This document shows, in pieces, positions 11,361-41,171 of a DNA stretch of 64,000 bases. This stretch comes from Pedobacter nanyangensis (GTDB lineage: Bacteria; Bacteroidota; Bacteroidia; Sphingobacteriales; Sphingobacteriaceae), in the NCBI RefSeq assembly GCF_003313505.1, contig NZ_QMHO01000013.1, positions 1 to 64,000 on the forward strand, written 5' to 3'. Position numbers and translations under genes: made by a program. Numbering within the stretch: the first letter of the stretch is position 1; every line of letters begins with the position of its first letter. Under the pieces are notes generated by a model. That model did no database searches. It was given only the letters and a program-made list of their open reading frames with translations, and was not told where the DNA came from.

Positions 11361-11384
11361 TCGTAGCAAATCATAATATTTAGT

Positions 11385-11392: not shown

Positions 11393-11446
11393 TAAAGGTT
11401 TAAGGAAGTGCACACCGCATTTTTTTAAACCTTTTGTTTTTAGCCG

Positions 11447-23922: not shown

Positions 23923-26900
23923 ATGAGATACCTGTTTTGGTTGTTGCTGCTCTTCGTTTCATCCCCTGTGGCCACTGCGCAGAAAACAATTGCTACACTC
24001 CAACATCGGGATTTGATGGCGGAGCAAACACTTAAGATTACGCAGGACCAAAAAGGTTTCATCTGGATTTCGAACCGCTTTGGTATTGATCGGTACGATG
24101 GCTACCATGTAAAGCATTACGAAATTCCAATGCTGGCCAATGCCAATCCTGTGAGGTACATCAACGTGCTGTCTAACAATAAAAAGCAGGTTTTTGCCTA
24201 TACCAGTAACGGAGGGATTTATCAATACCATGCCGCTGCGGATACTTTCCAATTGCTCACTAACCTTAATTTTTATGTAAGAACCTTGAGTATTGATTCC
24301 GATGGTGACATCTGGTTTGGAACCAACGGCCGTTTTGGCCTCTTTAAAGATGGAAAAGTGACCAACCTGCTGGCGCCACCGCCGCTCAAAGGGCTTTTAG
24401 TAAAAGACATTATCGAATACGGCGCCAACCAAAAAATTATCGTAGCGGATTATGGATTGTTTTGGCTTAGTGAAAATAACTTAAAACTTAGCCATTTTTT
24501 TGACCAACCGTTGCGGCAAAGCTTAGGCAATTTGCAGATAGAGACTGCACATTGGGACAAAGCCCTGCAAACGTTATGGATTGGAACAGTAGGAGGTAGA
24601 TTGTTGAGCTATCATCTGCCCTCAAAGAAATTGGAATCGATCGCGTTGTCTTCAGCCAATCAAGCCATGATCATGTGTATTGCCGAATCCAATAGCCGTA
24701 CACTGGTGGTTGGTACAGATGGGGCAGGAGTTTTTTTAATAGATAAGCTAAAGAAAAGCGTGGTTGGCAAATATAGCCAATACGAAACCGTGGAGCATTT
24801 AAGTGGCGACGCCATTTACGATATTTTTAAGGACAAGGATAACCGAATGTGGATTGCCACCAACGGCGGAATAAACCTAATGGAAACGCCGTTAAATGGG
24901 TTTCATGTGGAATTTAGACATGATGATAAACCCAATTTAATTGCAAAGGACGTGGTTACTTGCTTAATGCAGGACCGCCGTAAAAACCTGTGGTTTGGTA
25001 CCAACGGAGGTTTATCGTTAAAAAATGCAACTAATGGCGTTGTGAGTTTTCTGCTTAATTCGGTCTATATCCTTTCTATTTACCAGGCTAAAGATGGCCG
25101 TATTTGGGTAGGTACTTATGGGGCCGGGGTTTATGTGCTTAATGAACAGGGCAGTATTTTGGCCCATTATGTGAAGAAGAATAACCAAGCCAACGGTATC
25201 GGCACTAATTTCATTTACAGCATTACCGAAGATCAGGATGGGAACCTTTGGCTAGGCGGGAAAAAGGGGCCCAGCAGTAAGCTTGATCTCAAAACACAGC
25301 AGTTTAGCCATATTGCCTTGAGCCAGGTTAATCATTTGACCAAAAATTTAAAAGGCCATATTTTGGCTGCCACCGAAGTTGGGCTTTTTGAAATAGCGCC
25401 ACAAACGCTTAAGGTACAAGAGCATCCCATCACCAAAGCATTAAAAAGTAAATATGTTTGCGATGTTTATTTGCAGGGTGATAGTACTTTATGGCTAGCT
25501 ACCTACGGTGGGGGCTTGCTACGCTACCAAAACAAAAAGGGCAAACTGCAATATGTGAACACCTATCACCGTAGTGCGCAGGAAATAGCCTACAGTTTGG
25601 TGCCTGATGGTGATGCGCAACTTTGGGTAGCCTTTAAAGACAAAATTGCCGCCGTGAACACCAAAACTCTGGCGGTGAAAAACTATCCTAAAAAGCTGAT
25701 GCCCCTGAACATGAGCTTTTTTCAAACCGCAAGGATGAGGAGCAGTTCGGGAGAAATTTTCTTTGGCGGTACCAAAGGTTTTATTTCTTTCCATCCAAAA
25801 ACCATTAGTACACCAAGCTATTCAGAAAATATCGTATTCCTAAATTTCAATTTGTTTAATAAAGAAGTTAAGGCTGGAGAAAAAGATTCGCCTTTGGCGC
25901 AACCGCTCGATAATACTTCGTTCATTACCCTACAACATCATCAGCATTCCTTTTCGCTAACATTTACCACCGTTAATTTTAGTCAGGCCGTAGAACGAAA
26001 ATTTATTTGGAAATTAGATGGGCTTGACAAAAACTGGGTGGGGCCATCGGCAGAAAATACGGCAAATTATACCAACCTGGCGCCGGGGAAATATTTTTTT
26101 CACGTAAAAGCGATAGGGAACAATAACGAAGTATTGGACGAAAGGTCAATTGCACTGATCATTAAGCCCGCATTTTATAAAACCTGGTATGCCTACCTGC
26201 TTTACCTTGCCGTAGTTTGCGGATTGGTTTATTGGTGGATGCGCCAAACCAAAATGAGGGCTTATCTAGAAAGTTCACTCGCTTTTGAAAAGAAAGAAAA
26301 GCAACGCACCGAGGAATTGGCGCAAGCTAAGCTGAGTTTTTTCACCAATGTTTCGCACGAAATCAGGACACCGGTAACTCTTATTCTTGGCCAAACCGAA
26401 AATTTGATGAACGTGAGCAGCCTGCAACCTAGTTTACAGCAAAAGTTGGCGGGAATACATAAAAATGCCTCGAGTTTGGGTGCATTGATTAACGAATTAC
26501 TTGATTTCAGGAAACAGGAACAGGGCCATGTAAACCTAAAACTAGAAACTACCGATCTTGTGGCTTTGCTGCATGAATTTTTGAATGGTTTTTTTGCGCT
26601 TGCCCAACAACAGCATATCCATTTGAAGTACCAACATCCTCCAGAAGAAATAAGGTTACACTTGGACAGGAAGCAGATGGAAAAAGTGGTCAACAATTTA
26701 CTCTCCAATGCCTTTAAGGCGTGCAAGCCAGGTGATACGATTACCGTTAAAGTGGAAACAGAGGATCAGGAAGTACTGATAAGCGTAGCAGATACCGGAA
26801 AAGGCATTGCACAGGACCAGCTCATCCATGTTTTTGACGCATTTTATCAGGTTGATCCTTCAGCAAACCCCGGCACGGGAATAGGTTTGGCAATTTCAAA

Positions 26901-27867
26901 AAGTATCGTGGAACTGCATGGGGGAAGTATTCAGGTTTCATCTAAGGAAGGCGGGGGAAGTACGTTCGTGGTAAGGATGAAGCGGGAGGTTTTGGCCTCT
27001 GTACCGCAACATAGGTTTTTGCTTGATGGGGCAGAAGCCGCAAATACGGAAGAAACCAGCGAAACAATGTTGGATCCTAACTTGGCACAGGAAATTGAAA
27101 AAAGAAAACTGTTGTTGGTAGAGGATAATGACGAATTGAGAGCATTTGTAGGCGAAATTTTAAAACCTTTGTTTAGGGTAATTACGGCCAATAATGGTGA
27201 AACAGGTTTAGAATTGGCCAGAAAAGAACAGCCCGATTTGCTCATCAGTGATGTGATGATGCCTGGGATGTCGGGCACGGAGCTTTGTGCCAAAATTAAA
27301 AGCAATTTTGATACTTGCCACATTCCTGTAGTGCTGTTAACGGCTAAATCAGCAGTGGAACATCAATTGGAAGGCCTGCGTACCGGAGCCGACGACTATA
27401 TTACCAAACCATTTCATACCAAACTGCTTATACAACGTTGCAGTAATTTGGTTAATGCAAGGCAAGTACTAAAAGCCAAGTATTTTAACCAACCCGGATT
27501 GGCGCAACAACAGGAAGTGGCTACCACCGAAATGGATCGAAAATTTATTGACCAAGCCACGGCAATTGTCGAAAACCATTTGCACGGCGAAATAGATGTG
27601 AACCTGCTTGCTGCGGGAATGGGCCTCAGCAGATCGTCGCTGTTCAGTAAATTAAAAGGTGTTACAGGACTTACACCCAATACTTTCATTTCCAATATCC
27701 GTTTAAAAAAGGCTGCTGATATGTTGCAACATTCACATGAACTGAACATTAGCCAAATTGCTTATCACCTGGGTTTCAGCAGCCCAAGATATTTTAATAA
27801 ATGCTTTAAGGAATTGTATGGCTATGCGCCGCAGGAATATCGCAAAAAGTATCACGGATATTCCTAA
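23923..27867 (+). CDS. Hybrid two-component system sensor/regulator (HTCS) of the PUL
   Basis: 1314-aa one-protein two-component system. From the ATG at 23923 a signal peptide (ends VATAQK) leads to a periplasmic sensor of about 14 Reg_prop beta-propeller blades (DxxGxIWFGT-type repeats) and a Y_Y_Y domain (about 650-740). One membrane helix follows (about 760-780). Then come HisKA with H812 in FFTNVSHEIRTP, HATPase (NNLLSNAF, DTGKGI, GTGIGLAIS), a receiver domain with D1110 in LLISDVMMPG, and a C-terminal AraC-type helix-turn-helix (last 100 residues). In such proteins the propeller binds an oligosaccharide released from the target glycan and switches on the adjacent susC operon. All catalytic residues are present. 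Confidence 0.95.
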   Translation: MRYLFWLLLLFVSSPVATAQKTIATLQHRDLMAEQTLKITQDQKGFIWISNRFGIDRYDGYHVKHYEIPMLANANPVRYINVLSNNKKQVFAYTSNGGIYQYHAAADTFQLLTNLNFYVRTLSIDSDGDIWFGTNGRFGLFKDGKVTNLLAPPPLKGLLVKDIIEYGANQKIIVADYGLFWLSENNLKLSHFFDQPLRQSLGNLQIETAHWDKALQTLWIGTVGGRLLSYHLPSKKLESIALSSANQAMIMCIAESNSRTLVVGTDGAGVFLIDKLKKSVVGKYSQYETVEHLSGDAIYDIFKDKDNRMWIATNGGINLMETPLNGFHVEFRHDDKPNLIAKDVVTCLMQDRRKNLWFGTNGGLSLKNATNGVVSFLLNSVYILSIYQAKDGRIWVGTYGAGVYVLNEQGSILAHYVKKNNQANGIGTNFIYSITEDQDGNLWLGGKKGPSSKLDLKTQQFSHIALSQVNHLTKNLKGHILAATEVGLFEIAPQTLKVQEHPITKALKSKYVCDVYLQGDSTLWLATYGGGLLRYQNKKGKLQYVNTYHRSAQEIAYSLVPDGDAQLWVAFKDKIAAVNTKTLAVKNYPKKLMPLNMSFFQTARMRSSSGEIFFGGTKGFISFHPKTISTPSYSENIVFLNFNLFNKEVKAGEKDSPLAQPLDNTSFITLQHHQHSFSLTFTTVNFSQAVERKFIWKLDGLDKNWVGPSAENTANYTNLAPGKYFFHVKAIGNNNEVLDERSIALIIKPAFYKTWYAYLLYLAVVCGLVYWWMRQTKMRAYLESSLAFEKKEKQRTEELAQAKLSFFTNVSHEIRTPVTLILGQTENLMNVSSLQPSLQQKLAGIHKNASSLGALINELLDFRKQEQGHVNLKLETTDLVALLHEFLNGFFALAQQQHIHLKYQHPPEEIRLHLDRKQMEKVVNNLLSNAFKACKPGDTITVKVETEDQEVLISVADTGKGIAQDQLIHVFDAFYQVDPSANPGTGIGLAISKSIVELHGGSIQVSSKEGGGSTFVVRMKREVLASVPQHRFLLDGAEAANTEETSETMLDPNLAQEIEKRKLLLVEDNDELRAFVGEILKPLFRVITANNGETGLELARKEQPDLLISDVMMPGMSGTELCAKIKSNFDTCHIPVVLLTAKSAVEHQLEGLRTGADDYITKPFHTKLLIQRCSNLVNARQVLKAKYFNQPGLAQQQEVATTEMDRKFIDQATAIVENHLHGEIDVNLLAAGMGLSRSSLFSKLKGVTGLTPNTFISNIRLKKAADMLQHSHELNISQIAYHLGFSSPRYFNKCFKELYGYAPQEYRKKYHGYS

Positions 27868-28224
27868 AATAGCTTTCGCTGGATGATTTTGTCAAAATCT
27901 TTGGATGATATTATCACCCTCAGGCCAAATTACCGCGCTAAATTTGTTGAATGTTGTTGCCATTCCGGCATGCCAACCGCTGCGGATGAAACCTAACCTT
28001 TAACCAAATATTAAGCTTTATGACGAAGTTGGTACTACAAGTATTAGCCTTACCGCTAACTGTAATTATTGAGCAATTATTGGCCAGGGCCAATACCACT
28101 TTCATGGTGCAATTCTTAAATGCTCAGGAAACCCCAAATCTTAATTTAAACTTTAGGGCAATTGCCACACGATAGTTTCTGAGATGAACTGTAGAAACTA
28201 ATTTCCCAAACGATCAAACCAGAT
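27868..28224. other. Control region between HTCS gene and susC
   Basis: 357 bases that should hold the HTCS-dependent promoter of the PUL operon. TAAATTTG at 27939-27946 fits the -7 consensus, but no TTG lies at the right distance upstream, which would suit an activator-dependent promoter. If this is the promoter the susC leader is about 270 bases. A 51-codon open frame (28020-28175) lies inside. No strong palindrome was seen. Confidence 0.5.
28020..28175 (+). CDS. Possible small ORF in the susC leader
   Basis: A 51-codon frame from ATG (MTKLVLQVLALPLTVIIEQL...) to TAG. Its first 35 residues are hydrophobic and could form a membrane or amphipathic helix. No ribosome-binding site is visible and no family is recognised. 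It may be spurious; it is listed because it lies in the leader of the PUL operon and is too short for ordinary gene calls. Confidence 0.2.
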   Translation: MTKLVLQVLALPLTVIIEQLLARANTTFMVQFLNAQETPNLNLNFRAIATR

Positions 28225-31200
28225 ATGCAACTAAAAACCAATAAATTAAAACAGCCATTTTTCACCAAGTTAGTTTTAGCTGTGCTTAGTGTAATGTGTT
28301 GTGCCTTAGCGGCAAGTGCCCAAAACGTAAAAGGTAAAATTACCGATGATGAGAACCTGGGCATGCCAGGTGTAAGTATTTCCCTAAAAGGTACAGCAAC
28401 GGTGGCTTTGTCTGATAGTTTGGGCAATTACAGCATCAACATCCCGGCAGGCAATGGTAATCCTGTACTGGTTTTTTCGATGTTGGGTTTTCAGCGCCAG
28501 GAAATCATCGTAAACCAAAGAACATTACTTAACATTAAGCTTGTACGCGAAATTAATGACCTGAGCGAAGTAGTGGTGATTGGTTATGGAACCGTAGCCA
28601 AACGTGATTTAACTGGAGCGGTAGATAAGGCTGATATCAAAGAAATGCAAAAGGCCTCGGTGTTGGGCTTCGACCAAAGTTTGGCAGGCCGTGTGGCCGG
28701 AGTAAACGTGGTATCAGGCGAAGGTAGGCCCGGGGCTGAGGCTGATATCGTGATCAGAGGTGCAAACTCGTTAACCCAAAATAACAACCCTTTGTATGTG
28801 ATTGATGGTTTCCCTGTAGAAACGTCGATGAGTAACGCCATTGATCCAAAAGATATCGAGTCCATAGAAATTTTGAAGGATGCATCGGCAACAGCCATTT
28901 ATGGAGCAAGAGGCGCCAATGGGGTTGTAATGATTACTACCAAAACTGGAAAGGACGCTAAACCAACCATTAGTTATGATGGCTTTTACGGTGTCCAGTC
29001 GGTACTGAAAAAAATGGAAATGATGGATGGTTATGAGTTTGTGAAGTTGCAAGGCGAAGTTTTTGGAACTCAAACCATGGAAGACTACTACTTTTTTGGT
29101 GGACGAACTTTGGAAAGTTACCGTGGAACAGGAAAAGACTTCCAGGATGATATGTTTAGAACGGCACCTATGCAAAAACATGGACTTTCTATCCTTTCGG
29201 GCAACGCAGGCACTAAATACAATCTTTCCTTTTCCTACACCGGGCAAGATGGCGTAGTGCTCAATACTGGTTTTGATCGCGTTCAGGGACGTTTTTCTTT
29301 AGATCAAGATGTTAGGAAGTGGTTAAAGCTAGGTGCAAAACTAACCTACTCCAGAAGTAAGTATAGCGGCACTTTCCTTTCTGATGGTACAGCTACTTAT
29401 AATATCATGCAAAATACTTGGGCCTACAGGCCAGTGACGGGCTCTAGTAATTTTGATCTGGAAAATGATCTTTTCGACCCCATCCTTAATTCCAATGATA
29501 ATTACAGGATTAACCCAGTAGTTGCAGTTAAAAATGAGCAAAACGACAATGTCTTTACATTTATGATGGCCAATGGCTATGTGGATGTTAATATCCTACG
29601 TAATCTAAAATTTAGGACCATTGTTGGCTACTCCAAAAATAACATCCGCAACGATATTTTTAACAACTCGAAAAGCCGTAGTGGCAACCCACTTACCACA
29701 ACTTTAGGCGTTAATGCCGGGCAAATGTATGATGAAAAATCAAACTGGCTGAACGAAAACACCCTAACCTATAACCTAAAAAAACGTAAACATGCTTTCG
29801 AGGCCATGGGCGGTTTTTCGTTACAGTACGAAGACCATTTGTACAACTATACCCGCATGCAGCAAATCCCTTATGAAACCTTGGGCATGAGCGGCATGGA
29901 TCAGGGCAGTTTCTACTCCATGAACACTTATCGCAACGATTGGACCCTCATGTCGTACTATAGCCGTATAAACTACAACTACGCCGGTAAATACTATTTT
30001 ACGGGTACCATGCGGGCCGACGGTTCTTCCAAATTTTCGCCGCAAAACCGCTGGGGCTATTTTCCTTCTGCGTCCCTGATGTGGCGTTTTAGCAGCGAAA
30101 AATTCATGAAATCATTCAAGTTTGTGGACGACGCCAAACTTCGCCTAAGCTGGGGAACTACAGGCAATAACCGGGTAGGTGAATATGCTTCTCTTCCGCA
30201 AATTACCGCACTAAGGCCCGATCGCTATTATTTTGGTGGCGAGCTGATTATTGGCAGCGCCAAAACGGTAATGGGCAATCCCGAGTTGAAGTGGGAAAGT
30301 ACCGTAATGACAAACATTGGGCTTGATTTAAGCATGCTGAAAAAACGGCTAAACCTTACCGTTGAAGTGTATCAGAAAAGAACGAAAGACCTTTTGTTAA
30401 ATGCACAATTGCCAGGATCATCGGGATACCTCAGTTCCTTTAAAAATATTGGGGAAGTAGAAAACCGTGGATTGGAAATTACGCTCAACACCATTAACAT
30501 GAAAAAACGGGATTTCATGTGGACTTCCAGTTTCAACATCGCTTTCAATAGAAATAAAGTGATTTCGCTAACCGAAAATCAAGAAACCCTAGCTACTTCG
30601 GTGTGGTGGGAATATAGCCGTGATACGCAACCAGCCTACATTGCCAGAAAAGGCGAACCGGTAGGTTTAATGTTCGGATTTGTTTACGACGGCACCTACA
30701 AGCCAAGCGAGTTTACCCAAACTGGAAGTACCTATTATTTAAAAGACAACATTGCCTATCCAGGCTCTAGGGCAAACGTCAGACCAGGTGATATGAAATA
30801 TCGCGACATTAATGGCGATGGGATTATTGACGCTAACGACCGAACAGTGATTGGCAACGGATTTCCGCTGCACACTGGCGGCTTGAACAATACTTTTAGC
30901 TATAAGAATTTCGATTTAAGCGTGTTTTTCCAATGGAGTTATGGAAACGACATCCTGAATGCCAACAAATATATGTTTGAGCGTTATTATATGCCACATT
31001 CTAACATGTATGCTTCTTATGCCAACAGGTGGACGCCCGAAAATCCGAACAGTAATATTCCGAGGGTTAATGAAGGTTCGGGCAGTTACTATTCATCTTA
31101 CGGTATTGAAGATGGTTCCTATTTGCGCTTAAAAACCGTTGCCTTGGGCTACAACCTGCCAGCAAAACTGTTAGGTAAATCATTTGTCCAAAGCTTGAGA

Positions 31201-31359
31201 ATGTATGTTTCGGCGCAAAACTTATGGACCTGGACCAACTATACAGGGATGGACCCGGAAGTTTCAACGAGGCCCGGAGCACTAACCCCTGGTTTTGATT
31301 TCTCGGCTTACCCAAGATCCAATACCATCACATTTGGTTTAAATATGAATTTAAAATAG
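28225..31359 (+). CDS. SusC/RagA-type TonB-dependent outer membrane transporter
   Basis: 1044-aa outer membrane transporter that imports oligosaccharides with its SusD partner. After the signal peptide (ends LAASAQ) comes a carboxypeptidase-regulatory-like domain (KGKITDDENLGMPGVSISLK, about 35-110). A TonB box region (LSEVVVIGYGT) and plug domain (about 120-230, with NPLYVIDGFPVE and ILKDASATAIYGARGANGV) follow, then a 22-strand barrel ending in NTITFGLNMNLK. The ending on an aromatic/leucine-rich beta-signal is normal. It is the first gene of the PUL operon, 9 bases ahead of susD. Confidence 0.96.
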   Translation: MQLKTNKLKQPFFTKLVLAVLSVMCCALAASAQNVKGKITDDENLGMPGVSISLKGTATVALSDSLGNYSINIPAGNGNPVLVFSMLGFQRQEIIVNQRTLLNIKLVREINDLSEVVVIGYGTVAKRDLTGAVDKADIKEMQKASVLGFDQSLAGRVAGVNVVSGEGRPGAEADIVIRGANSLTQNNNPLYVIDGFPVETSMSNAIDPKDIESIEILKDASATAIYGARGANGVVMITTKTGKDAKPTISYDGFYGVQSVLKKMEMMDGYEFVKLQGEVFGTQTMEDYYFFGGRTLESYRGTGKDFQDDMFRTAPMQKHGLSILSGNAGTKYNLSFSYTGQDGVVLNTGFDRVQGRFSLDQDVRKWLKLGAKLTYSRSKYSGTFLSDGTATYNIMQNTWAYRPVTGSSNFDLENDLFDPILNSNDNYRINPVVAVKNEQNDNVFTFMMANGYVDVNILRNLKFRTIVGYSKNNIRNDIFNNSKSRSGNPLTTTLGVNAGQMYDEKSNWLNENTLTYNLKKRKHAFEAMGGFSLQYEDHLYNYTRMQQIPYETLGMSGMDQGSFYSMNTYRNDWTLMSYYSRINYNYAGKYYFTGTMRADGSSKFSPQNRWGYFPSASLMWRFSSEKFMKSFKFVDDAKLRLSWGTTGNNRVGEYASLPQITALRPDRYYFGGELIIGSAKTVMGNPELKWESTVMTNIGLDLSMLKKRLNLTVEVYQKRTKDLLLNAQLPGSSGYLSSFKNIGEVENRGLEITLNTINMKKRDFMWTSSFNIAFNRNKVISLTENQETLATSVWWEYSRDTQPAYIARKGEPVGLMFGFVYDGTYKPSEFTQTGSTYYLKDNIAYPGSRANVRPGDMKYRDINGDGIIDANDRTVIGNGFPLHTGGLNNTFSYKNFDLSVFFQWSYGNDILNANKYMFERYYMPHSNMYASYANRWTPENPNSNIPRVNEGSGSYYSSYGIEDGSYLRLKTVALGYNLPAKLLGKSFVQSLRMYVSAQNLWTWTNYTGMDPEVSTRPGALTPGFDFSAYPRSNTITFGLNMNLK

Positions 31360-31368
31360 CATCCAAAC

Positions 31369-33000
31369 ATGAAAAATAACATCCTATTCATCAGCTTGTT
31401 CAGCGTGTTGCTATTGAGCAGCTCTTGCAAGAAATTTTTAGAAACTACGCCCAAAGATTTCCTCTCCCCAGAAAATTATTTCCGTAACGAAGCCGAAGTG
31501 AAAAGTGCTTTAGCTGGTATCTATGTAACTCTCGGCAGTCACTTTACCTACGGTAGGTACATGGTAATTGACGGCGCAATGGACGATTTAGGCTATTGGA
31601 ACCAGGCCGAAGTAAACCTGATTGATCGCCTTTCAGGCTGGAACTACACCGCTGCGCAGCCACAAATTATGATGATGTGGCAACGCCTGTACGAAGGCAT
31701 TGAACGGGCAAACGTGCTTTTGGAAAATATTGATAAGGCTGAAATGGACAATGCGGTACGCGTTAAATACATTGGCGAAACCAGATTTTTAAGAGCCTAT
31801 TACCATTACCTGCTCACCGATTTGTGGGGCGATATTCCGGTACGCTTAAAATCAAATGCAAGCGTTACCCATGTAAATATACCACAAACAGCATCAAGTG
31901 AGGTATTGCAAATGGTAGTTGCCGAAATGGAAGATGTGATCAATGCCAACACCTTGGAGCCTGCCACCGCTTATAGCCATACCAGCAGAGTGAGCATTAC
32001 GGTAGCACAGGCCATACTCGCACGTATTTATCTTAAAATGGCAGGCGAGCCCCTAAAAATGGCAGGCATGTATGAAAAGGCCCTTTTTTGGGCTACTAAA
32101 GTCAAAGAAAGTGGGTTGCACAAACTCAATCCAAACTATGATGAAATCTTTACCAACCACTCTAAAAACATTTACGAAACGCAATATCGTGAGAGCATGT
32201 GGGAAGCTGATTTTACTGGAAACCCAACCACCGATCCGGGGAAAGATGATAAATATAGCTGGGTTGGGGTCACCAATGGCATTATTTGTTATGATGAGTC
32301 CGATGCTTTAGGCTATTCCTACGGTTATATCAGGGTAAGGCTAAAACTTTGGGATTTGTTTGAGGATACCGACAAGCGCAAGTATCGCAGCATTGCCCCG
32401 CACCGTTACAACGTGACCAGCCCAGGGCCTTATAATCAAAAGCTAACCACTTTTACTGCTATTGCAGATAGGTGTTCGGCAAAATGGCGCAGGGAGGAGG
32501 AAACGCTGAAGCCAAAAGTGAAAAACAACAACGAAACTAATTTCCCCATCATCAGATATTCAGATGTGCTTTTAATGATTGCAGAAGCGGAGAATGAATT
32601 GCATGGCATAACCAATGTTGCATTGGAAGCCATTAACGAGGTGAGGGCAAGAGCCGGGGTAAAACCTTACGCCACTTCTACAGGTAGTACGGTAATCACC
32701 ATTACGAACACGGATGACCTGCGACAAGTAATTAGGGACGAAAGAGCCAGAGAACTATGTTTTGAGGGAATTAGAAAGCATGATTTAATACGTTGGGGCA
32801 TATTTGAACAAGCCATGCAACAGGCCGCTGCCGAACCGTTCCTTTCAGCAAATAACGGAAACGGACGTACTGCAAATGCTTCACAGCGTACCATTATGGC
32901 GGCAATAGCAAGTAAGATGACCGAAAAATACAGGCTGTTCCCTATCCCGCAAAAAGAACTGAACCTTAACAATCAAATGAAACAAAATAGATTTTGGTAG
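31369..33000 (+). CDS. SusD/RagB-type glycan-binding outer membrane lipoprotein
   Basis: 543-aa surface lipoprotein that forms a lid over the SusC barrel and captures glycan. The lipoprotein signal ends LLLSSSCKKFLE. The N-terminal part has the typical opening (CKKFLETTPKDFLSPENYF), TPR-like helices follow, and the C-terminal RagB domain includes FPIIRYSDVLLMIAEAENEL, RDERARELCFEG and KHDLIRWG. It follows susC by 9 bases and precedes the next gene by 2 bases. Confidence 0.96.
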   Translation: MKNNILFISLFSVLLLSSSCKKFLETTPKDFLSPENYFRNEAEVKSALAGIYVTLGSHFTYGRYMVIDGAMDDLGYWNQAEVNLIDRLSGWNYTAAQPQIMMMWQRLYEGIERANVLLENIDKAEMDNAVRVKYIGETRFLRAYYHYLLTDLWGDIPVRLKSNASVTHVNIPQTASSEVLQMVVAEMEDVINANTLEPATAYSHTSRVSITVAQAILARIYLKMAGEPLKMAGMYEKALFWATKVKESGLHKLNPNYDEIFTNHSKNIYETQYRESMWEADFTGNPTTDPGKDDKYSWVGVTNGIICYDESDALGYSYGYIRVRLKLWDLFEDTDKRKYRSIAPHRYNVTSPGPYNQKLTTFTAIADRCSAKWRREEETLKPKVKNNNETNFPIIRYSDVLLMIAEAENELHGITNVALEAINEVRARAGVKPYATSTGSTVITITNTDDLRQVIRDERARELCFEGIRKHDLIRWGIFEQAMQQAAAEPFLSANNGNGRTANASQRTIMAAIASKMTEKYRLFPIPQKELNLNNQMKQNRFW

Positions 33001-33002
33001 AT

Positions 33003-33977
33003 ATGATAATAAAGAAATTGATCTTATTGGTTGGCGTTATCATTGTTTTTGCATCATGTAAAAACAATGATTTAGCTACACCCGAATTTAGTGTAAGCGT
33101 AGCCACTGAAAATGCAGTGCAAACCGATGATGGCATTCCCGTTTTTAAAGTGGGAAGCAGTGTAAGGTTTAATTTTAGCGGTGCCGTTGATATGGTAACT
33201 TTTTATTCCGGAGAACCAGGAATGATGTACCAGCACCGCGATAGAACTAAAATACAAGGATTGCCCTACCTACAGTTTAACACACAGATAGAAAATGGAA
33301 ATATGCCCTCTGGCTTTTTCCATGTGCTACTCTCGTCTGATTTTGCGGGCTTTACCAAAGATCGTGTAAAGGATGCCGAAAATATTACCAAGGCCACTTG
33401 GACTGATATTACCGATCAATGTAATCTCCCAACCACACAAACTACACAGCTATCTCCTAAAATTGATTTAACTGCGTATGCGAGTAAACCTTTATATGTT
33501 GCCTTTAAATACGATAGGCCAGTGAATACCGACTTCCCTCGCTATCAGGTGCGGAATTTTAGGGTAGCCAACCAAGCCGACGGCACCGATTATGATATTA
33601 TGAGAACAGGAAACGCCGGATGGACAGCTTTTGATTTCAACGCAAGGCCAACCGAAGACCCTTATCTGGCCACGGGTGGGGCGGCGGCTAACCGCATTTG
33701 GGATTTCAGGAATGCTTCAAGCGACGACAGGATCAGCATTGGCTACAACAGTACTTTGGCCAGTAACGATTGGGCCGTCACCACGGCAATTGACCTTACT
33801 TCCATCTCTCCCGATTTGGGGCAGGGAATTAAGGCATATAACGATGATCGTTTAAAAGAATACCAATTCATTTACAATAAAGTAGGAACTTTTACCGTAA
33901 GCTTTGTCGCCACAAATTCCAAATATGATCAAGCGGTAACCACCGTAAAAGAAGTCAAAATTAAAATCATTAACTAA
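33003..33977 (+). CDS. DUF5017-like PUL surface lipoprotein, probable glycan-binding
   Basis: 324 aa from the ATG at 33003, two bases after the susD stop. The lipoprotein signal ends IVFASCKNND. The mature protein begins with a short PKD-like strand pattern (PEFSVSVATENAVQTDDGIP), then a segment with VTFYSGEPG and a central beta-sandwich with YVAFKYDRP, consistent with the DUF5017/choice-of-anchor type family seen next to SusD genes. The position suggests a surface glycan-binding protein like SusE or SusF. Binding itself is inference. Confidence 0.75.
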   Translation: MIIKKLILLVGVIIVFASCKNNDLATPEFSVSVATENAVQTDDGIPVFKVGSSVRFNFSGAVDMVTFYSGEPGMMYQHRDRTKIQGLPYLQFNTQIENGNMPSGFFHVLLSSDFAGFTKDRVKDAENITKATWTDITDQCNLPTTQTTQLSPKIDLTAYASKPLYVAFKYDRPVNTDFPRYQVRNFRVANQADGTDYDIMRTGNAGWTAFDFNARPTEDPYLATGGAAANRIWDFRNASSDDRISIGYNSTLASNDWAVTTAIDLTSISPDLGQGIKAYNDDRLKEYQFIYNKVGTFTVSFVATNSKYDQAVTTVKEVKIKIIN

Positions 33978-33987
33978 GCCATAAACC

Positions 33988-35238
33988 ATGAAACCTAAAG
34001 CGATCTTGCCGATACTATTTCTTGCCCTCAGCACCTTGCTGGCCTTTGTAGCCGATCCAAACGAAATGTCTTTTGTGAAACAGCATTTTTCTGCTTCCGA
34101 AAAACAGCTCGGTAAATTATTAGATACCGCCAACCGGGTGGACACGCTCTACCCCAGAACAATTGATCAATGCGGTAAGGTAATATTCACCAATATGTAT
34201 GAATGGACCTCTGGCTTTTTTGCAGGTAGTTTGTGGTACGGCTATGAAGGTACCGGAAACCCTCAGCTTAAAGCCCAAGCCATTAAATGGACCGAAAAGT
34301 TAGAACCTCTAAAAAGCTTTACCGAGCATCACGATTTAGGTTTCATGGTTTATTGTAGCTACGGCAATGCCTATCGCATGACTAAAAACGAAAAATATAA
34401 AGATATTTTGGTGCAGGCAGCCCAGTCGTTAAGTACACGTTTTAGTGAAAAAACCGGTGTAATTAAATCATGGGACAAGTTTGGCTCTTGGGATGGGAAA
34501 GGCCGCTATGATTTTCCGGTAATTATCGATAACATGATGAACCTTGAACTGTTATTTTTTGCTTCAAAGGTTACCGGCAACCAAAGCTATCGGGAAATTG
34601 CGTTGAGCCATGCCGAAAAGACCATGCAAAACCAAATACGTGATGATTACAGTTCCTATCATGTGGTATGTTACGATCCGCAAAATGGAAAAGTACTTTC
34701 GAGGGAAACGGCCCAGGGCTACGCCAATAATTCTACCTGGGCCAGGGGGCAGTCGTGGGGCATTTATGGATTTACCATGACCTATCGGGAAACGCAGGAT
34801 CCTAGATATTTGAAAGTTGCCTCAAAAATGGCTGATTATTATATTGATCACAGCGATTTACCTTCTGATTTTGTGGCCTACTGGGATTTTAACGCTAACC
34901 AAAACGGATACACTCCATCAATACGCTCAAAAGCCAAAGATACGCCCACCAATTATCGCGATGCCTCGGCAGCCGCCGTTACAGCATCAGCCCTGCTGGA
35001 ATTAAGTACTTTTAGTGGTATAAACGCCAAAAAATATCGCGATGCCGGAGTAAAAATTCTTAAAAGCCTAAGCGGTTCGGCCTATTTTGCAAAATATGGT
35101 ACCAACGGTGGGTTTTTGTTGAGGCATAGCGTGGGCAGCATAGCCCATGGTGTAGAGATAGATGTGCCTTTAGTTTACGCAGATTATTATTATCTTGAAG
35201 CTTTGAATAGATACAGGAAAATATTATCGGCAGCCTAG
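33988..35238 (+). CDS. GH88 unsaturated glucuronyl hydrolase
   Basis: 416 aa with an N-terminal signal (MKPKAILPILFLALSTLLAF). It removes 4,5-unsaturated uronic acid from the non-reducing end of oligosaccharides made by polysaccharide lyases. The fold is an alpha6/alpha6 barrel. The two catalytic aspartates of the family match D116 (EHHDLGFM) and D181 (VIIDNMMNLE); other family stretches are NMYEWTSGFFAG and TWARGQSWGIYG. It is placed directly before the lyase that would generate its substrate, pointing to periplasmic completion of uronate-glycan breakdown. The GH105 family is the alternative, but the motif set favours GH88. Confidence 0.92.
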   Translation: MKPKAILPILFLALSTLLAFVADPNEMSFVKQHFSASEKQLGKLLDTANRVDTLYPRTIDQCGKVIFTNMYEWTSGFFAGSLWYGYEGTGNPQLKAQAIKWTEKLEPLKSFTEHHDLGFMVYCSYGNAYRMTKNEKYKDILVQAAQSLSTRFSEKTGVIKSWDKFGSWDGKGRYDFPVIIDNMMNLELLFFASKVTGNQSYREIALSHAEKTMQNQIRDDYSSYHVVCYDPQNGKVLSRETAQGYANNSTWARGQSWGIYGFTMTYRETQDPRYLKVASKMADYYIDHSDLPSDFVAYWDFNANQNGYTPSIRSKAKDTPTNYRDASAAAVTASALLELSTFSGINAKKYRDAGVKILKSLSGSAYFAKYGTNGGFLLRHSVGSIAHGVEIDVPLVYADYYYLEALNRYRKILSAA

Positions 35239-35250
35239 TTTTTAAATGAG

Positions 35251-37101
35251 ATGAAATTTTTAACCCTGCTGGTCAGTCTGTTTTTTGCAAGTGCCACCTA
35301 TGCACAGCAAATAGATGTTGCTAAAATCAAGGCACATCCCCGTTTATTGCTTCTGCAAGGCGACGAAGAACACATTAAAACCGAAATCAAAAAAGAGAAA
35401 GCTTGGGCTGACGTGAACTATGCCATTATAGAAGAAAGTAAGGCCATCTTAAAACTTGCGCCCATGGAAAGAAAGTTGATTGGTCGCCGTTTGCTTCAGG
35501 TTTCCAGGGAAGCATTGCGCCGCGTATTCTATCTTTCCTACGCATGGCGGATGACAGGCAGTGACGAGTATTTTAAAAAATGTGAAGAAGAACTATTAGC
35601 GGTTTCCGGTTTCGAAGATTGGAATCCCAGTCACTTTTTGGACGTGGCCGAAATGACTATGGCCGTATCCATCGGTTACGATTGGTTGTATCCGAAGTTA
35701 TCAAAAAACTCCAGAGACATGATCAGCAGGGCAATTATTGAAAAAGGCTTAACTCCAGCCCTTGATCCGAAATACAATGGTTGGCAAAGAGGGAAGAACA
35801 ACTGGAACCAAGTATGCAATACGGGAATTAGCTACGGGGCGCTTGCCGTTTTTGAGCAACAGCCTGAAATATCTACGCAAATCATCCAAAAAGCTATCCA
35901 AAGTATCAAATTGCCTATGGCCGCTTATGCACCCGAAGGAAATTATATGGAAGGCTACAGCTATTGGGCCTACGGAACTTCGTTTAACGTGTTTTTTATC
36001 AGTGCGCTCGAAAAACTTTTCGGTACCGATTTTGGCTTGTCGGCACAACCAGGGTTTCTGCAAACTGCAGCTTTTTACGAAAATCTGGTTGGTACCTCAG
36101 GCCTAGCCTTTAACTATGGCGATGCAGGCGGAATAGAAGGGTTGCAGCCAGCAATGTTTTGGTTTGCCGATAAACTAAAAGATCAATCGCTGCTCTTTAT
36201 CGAAAAAGAATACCTGCTTACTTCAAAATACAATGTCAAATCAAACCGCTTGTTGCCTGCCGCCATGATTTGGGCAAAAGGCGTTAAAATAAATGATATT
36301 GCCACTCCCACTACAAACCTTTGGTTTGGTAAAGCTGAAAATGAAATTGCGGTGCTAAGAAGCGGCTGGACAAAAGGAAAAGATATTTATGTAGGTTTCA
36401 AGGGCGGAACCGCTTCGGTGGGGCATGCCCACATGGATGCCGGATCTTTTGTGCTGGATATGGATGGGGTAAGATGGGCTTCGGAACTTGGCATGCAACA
36501 ATATAATTCGCTTGAATCTGCCGGTTTGAGCATTTGGGACATGAGCCAGAAATCACAACGCTGGCAGGTTTTCCGCTTAAATAACCATTCCCACAATACC
36601 TTAACCGTTAACGGTAAGCTACACAATATGGCTGGCAATGCTAAACTGGTTTCCAAAACAACGGATCCCAATTTTACCGCCGCGGTTTTTGATCTTTCTA
36701 CGGTGTTTTGGCCCGATTTGAGCCAAGCCCAAAGGGAAATTTCCATCATTAATAAAACACGAGTGGCCTTGCAGGATGAACTCACCGCAGGCGATAAGGA
36801 AGTGACCGTAAGATGGGCCATGCTTACCCAGGCAAAAATAGAAAGTTTAACAAATGGCACCGCACTTTTAAGCAGTAAGGGCAAGCAATTGAAAGTTCAT
36901 GTGGAAGGTTTGGCTGAAGTAAAACTGCAAACCTGGACTACCGATCCGCCAAAAAGTTACGATGCGCCAAACCCAGGAACCATTCTATTGGGCTTCGAAT
37001 TTAAGCTCCCCGCCAACAGCAAAAAAAACATTCGGGTCTTATTTACCTCTCCCGATAAAAATGAATCAACTAAAGCCAATTTAAAACCGCTCGAGAACTA
37101 A
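35251..37101 (+). CDS. Heparinase II/III-type polysaccharide lyase
   Basis: 616 aa with a signal peptide ending SATYAQQ, so periplasmic or surface. Residues about 25-330 form an alpha/alpha toroid with NNWNQVCNTG (183-192) and NYMEGYSYWAYG (231-242), which carry the Asn and Tyr residues expected at the catalytic site. Residues about 340-600 form the heparinase II/III beta-sandwich with GHAHMDAGSF (H392, H394) and HSHNTLTVNG. Such enzymes cleave uronic-acid glycans by beta-elimination, leaving the unsaturated end that GH88 removes. I cannot assign a PL family (PL12, 15, 17, 21, 33 and others share this fold). With no sulfatase nearby, a heparin-like substrate is unlikely. Confidence 0.88.
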   Translation: MKFLTLLVSLFFASATYAQQIDVAKIKAHPRLLLLQGDEEHIKTEIKKEKAWADVNYAIIEESKAILKLAPMERKLIGRRLLQVSREALRRVFYLSYAWRMTGSDEYFKKCEEELLAVSGFEDWNPSHFLDVAEMTMAVSIGYDWLYPKLSKNSRDMISRAIIEKGLTPALDPKYNGWQRGKNNWNQVCNTGISYGALAVFEQQPEISTQIIQKAIQSIKLPMAAYAPEGNYMEGYSYWAYGTSFNVFFISALEKLFGTDFGLSAQPGFLQTAAFYENLVGTSGLAFNYGDAGGIEGLQPAMFWFADKLKDQSLLFIEKEYLLTSKYNVKSNRLLPAAMIWAKGVKINDIATPTTNLWFGKAENEIAVLRSGWTKGKDIYVGFKGGTASVGHAHMDAGSFVLDMDGVRWASELGMQQYNSLESAGLSIWDMSQKSQRWQVFRLNNHSHNTLTVNGKLHNMAGNAKLVSKTTDPNFTAAVFDLSTVFWPDLSQAQREISIINKTRVALQDELTAGDKEVTVRWAMLTQAKIESLTNGTALLSSKGKQLKVHVEGLAEVKLQTWTTDPPKSYDAPNPGTILLGFEFKLPANSKKNIRVLFTSPDKNESTKANLKPLEN

Positions 37102-37118
37102 TGCAAATCCTTTGAGAA

Positions 37119-39053
37119 ATGAAAAAAGCAGCTTATTTACTATTCTTTCTGAGCTTATGGATATGCTCGGCCCATGGAGATGTAACCCTGCCAAAGCTTG
37201 TGAGCAATGGCATGATACTACAACGAGACCAAAAAGTAAAACTCTGGGGCTGGGCCTCTCCTAACGAAGAAATTACCATCGAATTTAATGGACATACCGT
37301 TAAAACCATTGCCGGGCAAGACCAAAAATGGCAAGCCTTTTTACCTGCAATGAAAGCAGGGGGTCCCTATCAAATGACCATAAAAGGAAATAACACGATG
37401 GTGCTAAAAGATATTTTGTTAGGTGATGTTTGGCTATGCTCTGGACAATCCAATATGGAATTCCTGCTCTCTAAATCCAAGGAGCTTTACAGGAACGAAA
37501 TTGCCAGTTCTACGAACAATCAAATCAGGGAATTTTCAGTGAAGAACAGATATAGCTATGTTTTACGACAAGACATTGATGAAGGTTCATGGAAAAGTGC
37601 CAATCCGCAAAATGTTTTGGGCTTTAGCGCCGTTGGTTACTTCTTTGCCCTTAACCTTTACCAAAAATATAAAGTGCCCATTGGCATTATCCACTCAAGC
37701 TACCCCGGCTCCCCGGCAGAGGCCTGGATGAGCGACGAAGCATTGCAACAATACCCACATTATCTGAAAAAAGCCGCTCCATATAAAGATGAAGCCTTTG
37801 CACAGGCCGCATTGCAAAAAGACAAACAAACTCATGATCAATGGTTTGTGGAACTTAATAAAAATGATAAAGGATTGAATGGTAGAACACCGATATGGTC
37901 AAAGCCTAATATCAATGTTGCCGAGTGGAAAAAAATTAAAGTGCCGGGCGCATGGGAAGATCAGGGAGTGGATGTTGATGGTGTAGTTTGGATGCGCAAA
38001 CAAGTAAATGTGCCCCGTGAAATGCTTGACAAACCCAATTACCTCGAACTGGGTTTGATAGATGATATTGATACCACTTATTTAAATGGCGTTGCCCTTG
38101 GAACAAAGAATAACCGATATTTGGAAAGACGCTACCAAATCCCAAATGGTTTACTAAAAGCGGGGGAAAATGTCATTGCCGTAAGAGTTGTGGATAAAGA
38201 AGGTAGGGGTGGTATCATCCCTGGTAAGCAATATCGATTGGGCAACGCAGAAAAATATATCGATTTAACTGGCGACTGGCTTTATCAAATTGGCCACCAA
38301 ATGCCAGCTATGCCAGTAAAAACCTTTTTAAGGCTGGAGTACATGCCCGGGATCCAATATTTTAGCAAACTGCTACCTATTGCGGGCTATACCATTAAAG
38401 GCGTAGCCTGGTATCAGGGAGAGGCCAACACCGGTAACCCTAATGAGTATAGAACACTGTTGCCGGCCATGATCAAAGATTGGCGTAACTTATGGGGACA
38501 GGGAGAATTCCCTTTTCTGATTGTGCAATTGGCCAATTATTTGGCACCTCCTACTGAACCTCAAGACGGTGGCTGGCCAAGGCTACGCGAAGCACAGGCC
38601 TTTGTGGCCAATACGGTGCCCCATGCTGGCTTAGCTTTGGCCATCGATATTGGGGAGGCAAATGATATTCACCCCCTAAATAAAAAAGATGTAGGCTACC
38701 GGCTTGCCTTAAGCGCCTACAAAGTGGCTTATGGAGATAAAAATGTCATTGATCCAGTTACACAATATGATTCCATGAAAGTGGAAGGCGATAAAATCAT
38801 CATTTCATTTAAAAATTTAGGCCATGGGCTACAGGCAAAAAATGGTGAATTAAAACAGTTTGCCATTGCTGGTGCCGACAAAAAGTTTTACTGGGCCAAA
38901 GCAACCATCAAAAATGGTAAGGTAGAAGTTTGGAGTAGCCAAGTGAAGCAGCCCGTGGCAGTACGCTATGCCTGGGCAAACAACCCCGAAGGAAGTAACC
39001 TATATAATCTAAATGGCTTGCCAGTAGCACCGTTCCGAACCGATAACTGGTAG
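37119..39053 (+). CDS. Sialate O-acetylesterase-type SGNH carbohydrate esterase
   Basis: 644 aa with a signal peptide ending SAHGDV. The SGNH hydrolase core is split by an inserted beta-sandwich (about 255-365, with YLELGLIDDIDTTYLNG), the usual arrangement of this family. The nucleophile is S111 in CSGQSNME, the oxyanion segment is WYQGEANTG, and D516/H518 lie in NDIHPLN. The family includes sialate 9-O-acetylesterases but also plant-polysaccharide acetylesterases. In this operon, which has no sialidase, removal of acetyl groups from the target glycan is the better guess. Confidence 0.9.
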   Translation: MKKAAYLLFFLSLWICSAHGDVTLPKLVSNGMILQRDQKVKLWGWASPNEEITIEFNGHTVKTIAGQDQKWQAFLPAMKAGGPYQMTIKGNNTMVLKDILLGDVWLCSGQSNMEFLLSKSKELYRNEIASSTNNQIREFSVKNRYSYVLRQDIDEGSWKSANPQNVLGFSAVGYFFALNLYQKYKVPIGIIHSSYPGSPAEAWMSDEALQQYPHYLKKAAPYKDEAFAQAALQKDKQTHDQWFVELNKNDKGLNGRTPIWSKPNINVAEWKKIKVPGAWEDQGVDVDGVVWMRKQVNVPREMLDKPNYLELGLIDDIDTTYLNGVALGTKNNRYLERRYQIPNGLLKAGENVIAVRVVDKEGRGGIIPGKQYRLGNAEKYIDLTGDWLYQIGHQMPAMPVKTFLRLEYMPGIQYFSKLLPIAGYTIKGVAWYQGEANTGNPNEYRTLLPAMIKDWRNLWGQGEFPFLIVQLANYLAPPTEPQDGGWPRLREAQAFVANTVPHAGLALAIDIGEANDIHPLNKKDVGYRLALSAYKVAYGDKNVIDPVTQYDSMKVEGDKIIISFKNLGHGLQAKNGELKQFAIAGADKKFYWAKATIKNGKVEVWSSQVKQPVAVRYAWANNPEGSNLYNLNGLPVAPFRTDNW

Positions 39054-39081
39054 CCCTCAAATAAAGAAAGGAACCACTCAC

Positions 39082-40608
39082 ATGATTTGTAAAAACAGCA
39101 TCATCAGGATTTGTATTGCCCTAACTTTTTTGGGCATTGGCCTAGCTTCTTGCAAAAAGAAAGCCGCAGAACAGCCCGTAAACCCAGAAAAGGAATTGCC
39201 CAAACCTAACTTAATACAAACGGTAGGAGTTAGATCGGTTAATAATTTTGAATTCCTAAAAGGAGCCGATATTAGTCATGTTACGATGATGGAACAGCAA
39301 AATCGATTGTTCTTTAACACTACCGATCAGCAGGATTTATTTCTACTGTTAAAGCAACGAGGCCTAAACAGCATCAGGTTGAGGGTTTGGGTTAATCCGG
39401 CAGGGCCATATTTTTACAGCAGCATTGCCGATGTGGTTGCCAAAGCACTGCGTGCAAAAGCTGCAGGACTATCTATCTTATTGTCGTTTCATTATAGTGA
39501 TAGCTGGGCTGATCCTTCCCAGCAAAATATTCCGGCCGCTTGGACCAGCTATACCTTGGCCCAAATGAAAACTGCGTTGGCCAGCCATACCACAGATTGT
39601 TTAAATGCCCTTAAGGCCAATGGCATTACTCCAAAATATGTGCAAATTGGCAATGAAACCGATTATGGTATGTTGTGGCCAATGGCCGATATCAGGATTG
39701 CTGGCAATATGGTTAACTATGCAGCTTTGCATAAAGCTGGCTATGATGCGGTAAAGGCGATTGATCCCTCTATTAAAGTAATGGTGCAGTTTTCTAAAGG
39801 TTATGATAATGCTAACTGCAAAGCGGTTTTAAATGGTTTAATTGCCAATGCCGCAACTTTTGATGTTGTAGGGATTTCGGTTTATCCGGTGCTCGAAACT
39901 TATCATGCCAATATAGAAGACAGTTTGGACAATCTAGCGGATTTAGTAGCCACTTATAACAAAGAGGTAATGGTGGTAGAATGTGGCTATTATCAAAATG
40001 ACCCTAAACGCACACGGGAAATGATTTTTAGACTGTTAGACGGCGTACATGCTTTAGCCAACCAAAAAGGCTTGGGGGTTTATTATTGGGAACCTCAGTA
40101 TTATCATCGGCCGCCAATTAACAAAAGTACTTTTGATGCCACTACAAAAAGCCCAACAATCGGACTAGATGGCTTCTCCCTGGTAAGAAATCCGGGATTT
40201 GAAGTGGATGAAGCAGCTGCGGCATCGCCGGCACAATGGCAAACCGCGGGCAGTAATCCCGATGCAAACTACTTGGAGGGCAATCCGCATACCGGAAGTT
40301 ATCGGTTAACACATTTTAAAAATAGCGGTTATAATGTAGAAACCAATCAAACCATAACAGGTTTAACCAACGGCATGTACACGTTGCAAGCTTGGGTAAG
40401 AAGTGGTACTGGATTGCTGGAAAATTACCTTTTCGCACGTGATTTTGGAGGAGCCCAAATGAAAGTAGCCATCAGCCCGGGCTCAACCTGGACCAAGCTA
40501 AGGATAGAGAACATCAATGTGAGCAACGGGCAGTGCATTATTGGCATGTACACCCGAGGCAACAACATCTACAGTAGTGTCGATAATTTCCAATTTTATA
40601 AACAATAA
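39082..40608 (+). CDS. GH53 arabinogalactan endo-beta-1,4-galactanase with C-terminal jelly-roll
   Basis: 508-aa lipoprotein (signal ends GLASCKKK), so probably on the cell surface. Residues about 55-365 are a GH53 (beta/alpha)8 barrel: FLKGADISHV, GLNSIRLRVWVNP, SFHYSDSWADPS, acid/base E192 in QIGNETDYGMLW and nucleophile E300 in VMVVECGYY. Residues about 370-508 form a beta-sandwich (LVRNPGFEVDEA...VDNFQFYK) resembling carbohydrate-binding modules appended to other GH53 enzymes, such as CBM61. The presence of GH53 argues that the target glycan contains beta-1,4-galactan. Its place in a lyase/GH88 operon is unusual. Confidence 0.93.
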   Translation: MICKNSIIRICIALTFLGIGLASCKKKAAEQPVNPEKELPKPNLIQTVGVRSVNNFEFLKGADISHVTMMEQQNRLFFNTTDQQDLFLLLKQRGLNSIRLRVWVNPAGPYFYSSIADVVAKALRAKAAGLSILLSFHYSDSWADPSQQNIPAAWTSYTLAQMKTALASHTTDCLNALKANGITPKYVQIGNETDYGMLWPMADIRIAGNMVNYAALHKAGYDAVKAIDPSIKVMVQFSKGYDNANCKAVLNGLIANAATFDVVGISVYPVLETYHANIEDSLDNLADLVATYNKEVMVVECGYYQNDPKRTREMIFRLLDGVHALANQKGLGVYYWEPQYYHRPPINKSTFDATTKSPTIGLDGFSLVRNPGFEVDEAAAASPAQWQTAGSNPDANYLEGNPHTGSYRLTHFKNSGYNVETNQTITGLTNGMYTLQAWVRSGTGLLENYLFARDFGGAQMKVAISPGSTWTKLRIENINVSNGQCIIGMYTRGNNIYSSVDNFQFYKQ

Positions 40609-40619
40609 CAATTTAATCA

Positions 40620-41165
40620 ATGAAAAAGAAACTGATTTTTGCTGCTTTGGGAGCTTTAGCTTACCTCAGTGCGAATGCGCAAAATACACCGATTATCCCC
40701 AATGGAGATATGGAAATTTGGAATGCGGGTAAACAATTTCCAAAACAATGGGGTACATTTTATACGATAGAAAAGGAAGGGATTTTCTCCCGGTCAACCG
40801 AAGCGCATTCTGGAAAATTTGCCATACAAGCCACTTTTGAACCTCAAAAAGAATTTGATAACCGTCGGTTTTTTGCGCAGCCCTTTAATTTGGAGGCTGG
40901 CAAGCACCAAGTTAAATTATTCTTGAAAGGAAGTGGCGATATCCGTTTTGTTGCGCTACATAAAAAAGACAGCAACGCTGCGGGTAAAAACAGTAGTTCT
41001 AATATTGCGGGTACACCGTTCATTGGCAAGGTAGAACATCAGGAATGGAAAGAGTACATCTTAGATTTTGATATCATTGATGCCGACAGCTACCAACTTA
41101 CCATTTGCTTTAATGCAGCAAATAAGCTACTGTTCGACGATATAACCGTAATAAAACTGAAATAA
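40620..41165 (+). CDS. Small secreted jelly-roll protein, probable carbohydrate-binding
   Basis: 181 aa with a signal peptide ending YLSANAQN. The mature protein is a single beta-sandwich of the CBM4/9-like type (IPNGDMEIWNAG, HSGKFAIQ, then LLFDDITVIKL). It follows GH53 by 11 bases and closes the PUL operon. It has no catalytic motif. It may bind the target polysaccharide or its products; this is inferred from fold pattern and position. Confidence 0.75.
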   Translation: MKKKLIFAALGALAYLSANAQNTPIIPNGDMEIWNAGKQFPKQWGTFYTIEKEGIFSRSTEAHSGKFAIQATFEPQKEFDNRRFFAQPFNLEAGKHQVKLFLKGSGDIRFVALHKKDSNAAGKNSSSNIAGTPFIGKVEHQEWKEYILDFDIIDADSYQLTICFNAANKLLFDDITVIKLK

Positions 41166-41171
41166 ATAAAA

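Follow-up and report, generated by a model that had tools for sequence, protein, structure and literature searches.

A cluster of nine genes in Pedobacter nanyangensis brings familiar components together in an unfamiliar combination, namely a lyase of a family so far assayed on animal-type glucuronic-acid polymers and a galactan-cutting enzyme. The cluster lies in a stretch of 64,000 nucleotides (the window), part of a 4.74-Mb genome, and it couples a subclade of polysaccharide lyase family 35 (PL35) to a subclade of GH53. The best explanation, to which about an even chance is given, is a polysaccharide utilization locus (PUL) for one non-sulfated, O-acetylated polysaccharide with 4-linked beta-D-glucuronic acid in it and beta-1,4-galactan attached, with GH53 at the cell surface and CE20, PL35 and GH88 in the periplasm. 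A preliminary description of this DNA had proposed a single acetylated uronic-acid polymer with galactan segments, and this is still the best reading, as the combination is found repeatedly and PL35, GH88 and GH53 stay in company; a pectic (galacturonate) backbone is unlikely. We infer from the coupling of PL35 with GH53 that galactan and glucuronan belong to one molecule, and the identity of this polymer, probably a polysaccharide new to description, is likewise a proposal.

Gene content and layout of the locus

Nine open reading frames are present at positions 23923–41165 and were assigned to families with Pfam and NCBIfam; the nine genes of the preliminary description were all found in place with the starts given there, including ATG starts at 23923 for the HTCS gene and at 33003 for the DUF5017 gene. 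Gene content, order and family membership were observed directly, with Pfam matches above the cut-off for the HTCS domains, Plug/CarbopepD_reg_2, SusD, DUF5017, GH88, Hepar_II_III_C, SASA and GH53. All nine genes are on the plus strand. The first encodes an HTCS hybrid two-component sensor/regulator (23923–27867; Reg_prop, Y_Y_Y, HisKA, HATPase_c, Response_reg and HTH_18), followed by a SusC-like TonB-dependent transporter (28225–31359; TIGR04056, 912.5 bits), a SusD-like lipoprotein (31369–33000; PF07980 and PF14322) and a DUF5017 lipoprotein (33003–33977; PF16409, 125.3 bits), presumed from the place of its gene to be a surface glycan-binding protein. The genes for the GH88, PL35, CE20, GH53 and jelly-roll proteins come next. 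The gaps from SusC onwards measure 9, 2, 10, 12, 17, 28 and 11 bp, the same 2–28 bases as reported before. With adjoining SusC and SusD genes, a regulator and CAZymes in a single gene run, the locus is a PUL. The 357-bp gap between the HTCS and SusC genes (27868–28224) is, judged by position only, the likely site of the operon promoter, and a promoter scan of 27800–41300 stayed at chance level (34 found against a mean of 29.7 in shuffles). Downstream, an inverted repeat (GGGTTTAGC/GCTAAACCC, 41173–41200), read from the sequence and lacking an entry in the terminator scan, may be a terminator between convergent genes. The absence of a sulfatase was confirmed, with no PF00884 match on the contig and eight elsewhere in the genome. 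Likewise, the GH2 catalytic domain (GH2_C) had no match on the contig and nine elsewhere, in agreement with the earlier remark that the locus does not fit known galactan PULs, which have GH53 with GH2. The locus is also without a beta-galactosidase gene, which was counted against the galactan-bearing one-polymer reading.

The GH88 protein (33988–35238, plus strand), a predicted unsaturated glucuronyl hydrolase with a signal peptide and, by reading, no lipobox, matched PF07470 with 54.8 bits (cut-off 26.6) and the solved structures 3wiw (E 1.2e-98) and 1vd5 (E 5.9e-57). The secreted jelly-roll protein (40620–41165, plus strand) gave no Pfam match and no PDB sequence match. A fold search with its model (pLDDT 69) indicated a CBM-like fold, with 1k42 (CBM4, E 1.3e-4) and 2xom (CBM61, E 1.1e-3) as matches. 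Five of six members of the jelly-roll family matched the BT4411 hyaluronan (HA)-binding family weakly (best E 2e-4), the window's own protein reaching 16.9 bits, far below the cut-off of 220. Of the 251 family genomes, four have a homologue with 47–100% identity, in each case at this locus; a single further match, of 32%, lies elsewhere.

The lyase, the esterase and the GH53 protein

The lyase (35251–37101, plus strand; signal peptide without lipobox, by reading) had been described as heparinase II/III-type, which holds for its Hepar_II_III_C match above the cut-off; more exactly, it belongs to PL35, with E values of 8.9e-209 against 8khv (GAGase II), 3.3e-166 against 8khw (GAGase VII) and, in the search of solved structures, 3.8e-73 against 9o3q, titled a PL35 chondroitinase. 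Alignment with GAGase II placed the catalytic Asn192, Tyr246 and His401 at N184, Y238 and H392 and Asn191 at N183, all four invariant in the eight lyases from clusters of this kind that were aligned. Among the 19 residues catalytic, docked or mutated in GAGase II, as given in section 8 of PMC12088678, 18 are identical in the window lyase and in all eight aligned lyases; the exception is Glu428, which is N419 in all eight. As 18 of the 19 residues are kept, the lyase should cut non-sulfated glucuronic-acid chains. The alginate-active GAGase III has His where GAGase II has Asn191 (PMC12088678), and N183 in all eight rows differs from this type. The classical heparinase and alginate-lyase readings were ruled out by the PL35 match and the active-site residues, and a pectin-lyase reading was set aside on account of the GAGase-type active-site residues; a galacturonate (pectic) backbone would be an unlikely substrate for such an active site. 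The closest named lyases, among the matches listed, are those of Pedobacter ureilyticus, P. chitinilyticus, P. helvus and 'Flavobacteriaceae bacterium PS02338' (77–80% identity).

The lyases of heparin and chondroitin sulfate (CS) PULs belong to PL12, PL13 and PL21 or to PL8 and are accompanied by sulfatases; the present locus, with a PL35 lyase and no sulfatase match on the contig, is of another kind. PL35 enzymes have been characterised on animal glycosaminoglycans (GAGs) and one on alginate (PMC11262172; PMC12088678). Their described activity covers hyaluronan as well as GAG domains that are non-sulfated or carry 6-O- or N-sulfate (PMC11262172), and the substrates used in assays include hyaluronan, unsulfated chondroitin and domains of heparan sulfate (PMC11262172; PMC12269599), the B. 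caccae enzyme preferring unsulfated chondroitin (PMC12269599). The earlier comparison with heparin PULs is thus not supported, since an enzyme that favours chains free of sulfate can do without a sulfatase and the absence of one is no surprise in this family.

The esterase (37119–39053, plus strand), previously called an SGNH esterase, does match SASA above the cut-off and is more exactly a CE20-type acetylesterase. Its nearest solved relatives are 9h4u (Fl8CE20_II, E 1.2e-192), 9ega (PpCE20_II, E 3.8e-170) and 7kmm (XacXaeA, E 1.6e-119). The SGNH domain carries an inserted ancillary domain, with SASA matched in two stretches and a GH2-N-like beta-sandwich (PF02837, residues 269–359, just under the cut-off) between them, and S111 (in GQSNM) and D516-x-H518 sit at the places expected for CE20 (PMC12313940). 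Both 9h4u and 9ega belong to CE20 cluster II, which is linked to xylan and marked by a loop with T/S331, Y332, Y334, P335 and R337 (PMC12313940). The same loop here reads N331, N332, Y334, L335 and R337, so that two of the five residues seem kept, going by raw numbering alone.

The GH53 protein (39082–40608, plus strand) is an endo-beta-1,4-galactanase-like lipoprotein with a PF07745 score of 262.1 bits (cut-off 24); the motifs of its two catalytic glutamates, E192 and E300, align with 6gp5, and the barrel motifs are conserved. It is the only GH53 of the genome, and no other enzyme encoded in the window's locus has a clear lipobox; the lipobox Cys24 is invariant in all ten members of its clade. 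The C-terminal domain (40183–40605) is CBM61-like by profile comparison with 2xom (TmCBM61; E 1.7e-9 over positions 1–140 of 141) and 9fli (E 3.9e-12), and the title of 2xom describes a structure solved with beta-1,4-galactotriose. The AlphaFold model of the protein was poor (pLDDT 62.7) and was left unused. The protein is regarded as a candidate beta-1,4-galactan hydrolase; it belongs to a clade of its own, so this activity is not to be assumed.

Recurrence and linkage of the gene set

PL35-like genes were found 61 times in 46 of the 251 family genomes (E 1e-40 or better), and 40 of the 60 neighbourhoods other than the window's were read. The core order SusC-SusD-DUF5017-GH88-PL35 was kept in seven of the 40, five with GH53 and five with CE20. 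A wider contig scan gave at least 564 PL35 relatives, and among the best 80, some of them on short contigs where the core could be cut off, nine had the core, one with two genes inserted (a Chitinophagales MAG, in which a GH16 protein lies between DUF5017 and GH88 and GH53 is missing). Going by the lengths of their contigs, four loci are common to the sets of nine and seven, and the distinct core loci, with the window, number 13, of which ten carry GH53, eight CE20 and six both. The full set with the jelly-roll gene is present in five (the window, P. ureilyticus, P. chitinilyticus, P. helvus and PS02338); the others belong to Sphingobacterium chuzhouense, Niastella OAS944, Terrimonas ferruginea, Desertivirga xinjiangensis, the MAG and the genomes G066, G228 and G073. 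T. ginsenosidimutans has a PL35-CE20 pair without the core. A chance grouping of genes is unlikely, the core order being seen again in other genera, and a chance neighbourhood was ruled out by this recurrence together with co-location. The SusC proteins form two groups, with 73–88% and 42–46% identity to that of the window, and each group includes loci with GH53 and loci with CE20. As GH53 is missing from three of the 13 loci and CE20 from five, both genes are accessory to the core and not essential to it. The Desertivirga GH88 starts with a lipobox-like LFAC, and two of the GAGases, VII and VIII, are listed as predicted lipoproteins (PMC11262172), so a periplasmic place of the lyase or of GH88 need not hold in every case.

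Linkage was likewise observed directly. GH53 lies within 5 kb of six of the 61 PL35 genes, against 0.065 expected by chance under random placement in 5.2-Mb genomes. The 251 family genomes, with up to six candidates scored per genome, contain six GH53s of the clade (58–100% identity), all within 2.3 kb of a PL35 gene, and the next match has 48% identity. In 395 genomes of the class, with up to three candidates scored per genome, the longest match outside the family reached 49% and one short match 50%, and no PL35 match was found within about 9 kb on each side of the longest. CE20 behaves likewise, though the gap is narrower: with up to four candidates scored per genome, the top six matches in the family (53–100%) are beside PL35, the next, among the matches listed, having 50%. 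A quick tree of 83 PL35s placed 16 on one side of a branch with SH-aLRT 100, and 13 of the 16 have the core (L079, L080 and L082 do not). A GH53 tree of 56 sequences (ten PL35-linked and 46 others, out of 127 matches) united the ten in one clade (100/100) apart from the 46. The stem of this clade measures 1.22 changes per site. Long branches drew a warning from the program, mainly on account of L207, and with so long a stem the deeper position of the clade calls for caution. Further GH53s that are long or divergent (L198–L207, G607, G307 and G177) had no PL35 match in the stretches read. That this GH53 derives directly from a galactan PUL of the usual kind was ruled out by the tree and the identity gap. 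The PL35 subclade and the GH53 subclade are therefore coupled.

Possible substrates and a neighbouring sorted protein

The activities and locations of the enzymes are predicted from what is known of their families, and under the one-polymer reading they would work as follows. GH53 and its CBM61-like domain would grip and cut the galactan parts at the cell surface, and the released acidic chains would be bound by DUF5017 and SusD and imported by SusC. In the periplasm, CE20 would take off acetyl groups, PL35 would act by beta-elimination at hexose(amine)-1,4-GlcA bonds and GH88 would remove the unsaturated glucuronyl residue, while HTCS would sense a breakdown product. The surface role of GH53 and the periplasmic place of the lyase and GH88 are suggested by the lipobox of the former and the lack of one in the window's lyase and GH88. 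The small size of the core might be explained by PL35 and GH88 being sufficient to give monosaccharides from a strictly alternating glucuronan. Conceivable substrates are glucuronomannan gums, amylovoran-type EPS, fungal mucoran and acetylated polyglucuronate; to our knowledge, no polymer fits a galactan-bearing acetylated glucuronan exactly. Tentatively, the locus may represent a dedicated system for a new class of galactan-bearing, acetylated, non-sulfated glucuronan, with the PL35-linked GH53s as a new functional subfamily adapted to it.

The main rival is that galactan and glucuronan are both present but separate, the core serving a GAG-like glucuronan and GH53 and CE20 another polymer, such as pectic galactan or an acetylated hemicellulose, around or alongside it. 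This is rather unlikely, even though GH53 and CE20 come and go among the core loci, the lyase followed by GH88 could alone finish a disaccharide-repeat glucuronan, and the locus may be the sole galactan tool of a genome with a single GH53. The xylan link of the nearest solved CE20s is also a hint of another acetylated polymer and speaks against one polymer. Nevertheless, the GH53s are a separate clade whose six members in the 251 family genomes were found only beside PL35, and the contig has no GH2 catalytic-domain match. That PL35, GH88 and GH53 occur together speaks for a single substrate or for two that are physically joined. An improbable alternative is a shift in the specificity of the GH53 clade, whose target would be a beta-1,4-galactosyl or related bond within the acidic polymer itself and not pectic galactan. 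The long stem may reflect such a change, which was counted against the galactan-cutting reading, and the identity to other matched GH53s of at most 49% at full length (50% over the catalytic part) and the tight linkage to PL35 and GH88 point the same way; E192, E300 and the barrel motifs are nevertheless conserved, and the attached domain resembles one solved with a galactotriose. An ordinary hyaluronan, chondroitin or heparosan PUL with two hitchhiking genes is very improbable. PL35 and GH88 of B. caccae do act so on chondroitin (PMC12269599), and the jelly-roll protein has a weak likeness to a hyaluronan-binding family; yet mere passengers would scarcely persist in ten and eight of the 13 loci, which span at least two families, and the GH53s make up a clade by themselves.

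The locus was also compared with known systems. The B. caccae chondroitin PUL25 (BcPL35, BcGH88, BcGH109 and BcGDH) is described, like the window, with PL35 and GH88 and without a CS sulfatase of its own; the nine genes of the window lack its GH109, dehydratase and M60-like peptidase and add GH53 with the CBM61-like domain, CE20 and DUF5017 (PMC12269599). The pectic galactan PUL BT4667–BT4673 of B. thetaiotaomicron shares HTCS, SusCD and an extracellular GH53, but has GH2 (PMC5238430), whereas the window's locus has PL35, GH88 and CE20, and its GH53, which carries a CBM61-like domain, falls in a clade apart. Neither of these two systems, as described, has the enzymes of the other (PMC12269599; PMC5238430). 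GAGases I–VIII share the lyase family and catalytic residues (PMC11262172; PMC12088678). Among the contigs scanned here, the PL35 loci of Spirosoma and Larkinella, read over at most 10 kb to either side, gave no match to SusC, SusD or GH88. Fl8CE20_II and PpCE20_II, nearest to the window's esterase among solved structures, share its family and catalytic motifs and are linked to xylan, whereas the window's locus has no xylanase (PMC12313940). No report of a locus pairing GH53 with PL35 was found among the open-access papers listed, which does not prove absence from print; of these, a yak faecal metagenome study alone mentions both families (PMC7547465). By tying a PL35 subclade to a galactanase subclade, the cluster offers a route to the natural polymer of PL35 in environmental bacteria, and it bears on whether GH53 holds more than one specificity. 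The hosts of the PL35-GH53 loci are, we assume, environmental Bacteroidota.

Beyond the coordinates covered by the preliminary description, a gene for a T9SS-sorted protein of 548 aa (22048–23694, minus strand; TIGR04183, 29.3 bits, cut-off 23; PF18962 below the cut-off) lies divergent from the HTCS gene. No homologue was found in the flanks read of G205, G066, G228 and G073, and the GH16 protein of the MAG starts with a module weakly like it in a single comparison (E 1e-6), which was not found at 1e-6 in the flank search. Paralogues in the genome are weaker (33–34% over nearly the full length). Homologues with 64–66% identity are divergent from HTCS in P. ureilyticus and P. chitinilyticus, and one with 52% lies directly downstream of CE20 in Desertivirga. 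The gene adjoins the locus in all three Pedobacter loci read that far, the loci of P. helvus and PS02338 ending before its position, and its product is probably an associated part that acts with the PUL at the cell surface.

T9SS-sorted protein beside the locus

The HTCS gene of the window is adjoined by a gene for a T9SS-sorted protein (22048-23694, minus strand), which may be part of the PUL system, since its Desertivirga homologue lies directly downstream of CE20.

Putative hydrolase genes in related PL35 loci

The Chitinophagales PL35 PUL (L091) was found to lack GH53 and to encode a 957-aa protein with a GH16 domain at its end (L091:4977-7847). The PL35 locus of Terrimonas ginsenosidimutans presented a 498-aa ORF between SusD and PL35 (L080:8467-9960), possibly an undescribed hydrolase, whose sole match was a weak one to a GH2 barrel, under the cut-off.

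Further PL35 loci

A second PUL with PL35 was observed in the genome of the window (G000:C2:552617-564104; collected loci L060 and L061), in which SusCD and one PL35 stood divergent from a PL35-containing ORF of ~1190 aa; GH88, HTCS and CE20-like genes, the last at 42% identity, were also present. A similar divergent pair was present in genome G108. PL35s of the Pedobacter soli type were observed in loci L131, L139, L142, L144, L145 and L151 (about 10000-11800). Their neighbours were proteins of ~270/290 aa and a conserved one of ~868 aa, and neither SusC nor SusD was matched in the vicinity.

GH53 genes of Desertivirga

The long GH53s (508-509 aa) of two loci on one Desertivirga contig (L198 and L199, G006:C21) grouped on a long branch of the GH53 tree as a further pair of diverged sequences, and SusD matches were also present in both loci. 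A further GH53 gene of this genome (L200, G006:C11:529127-529982) was apparently split between two reading frames.
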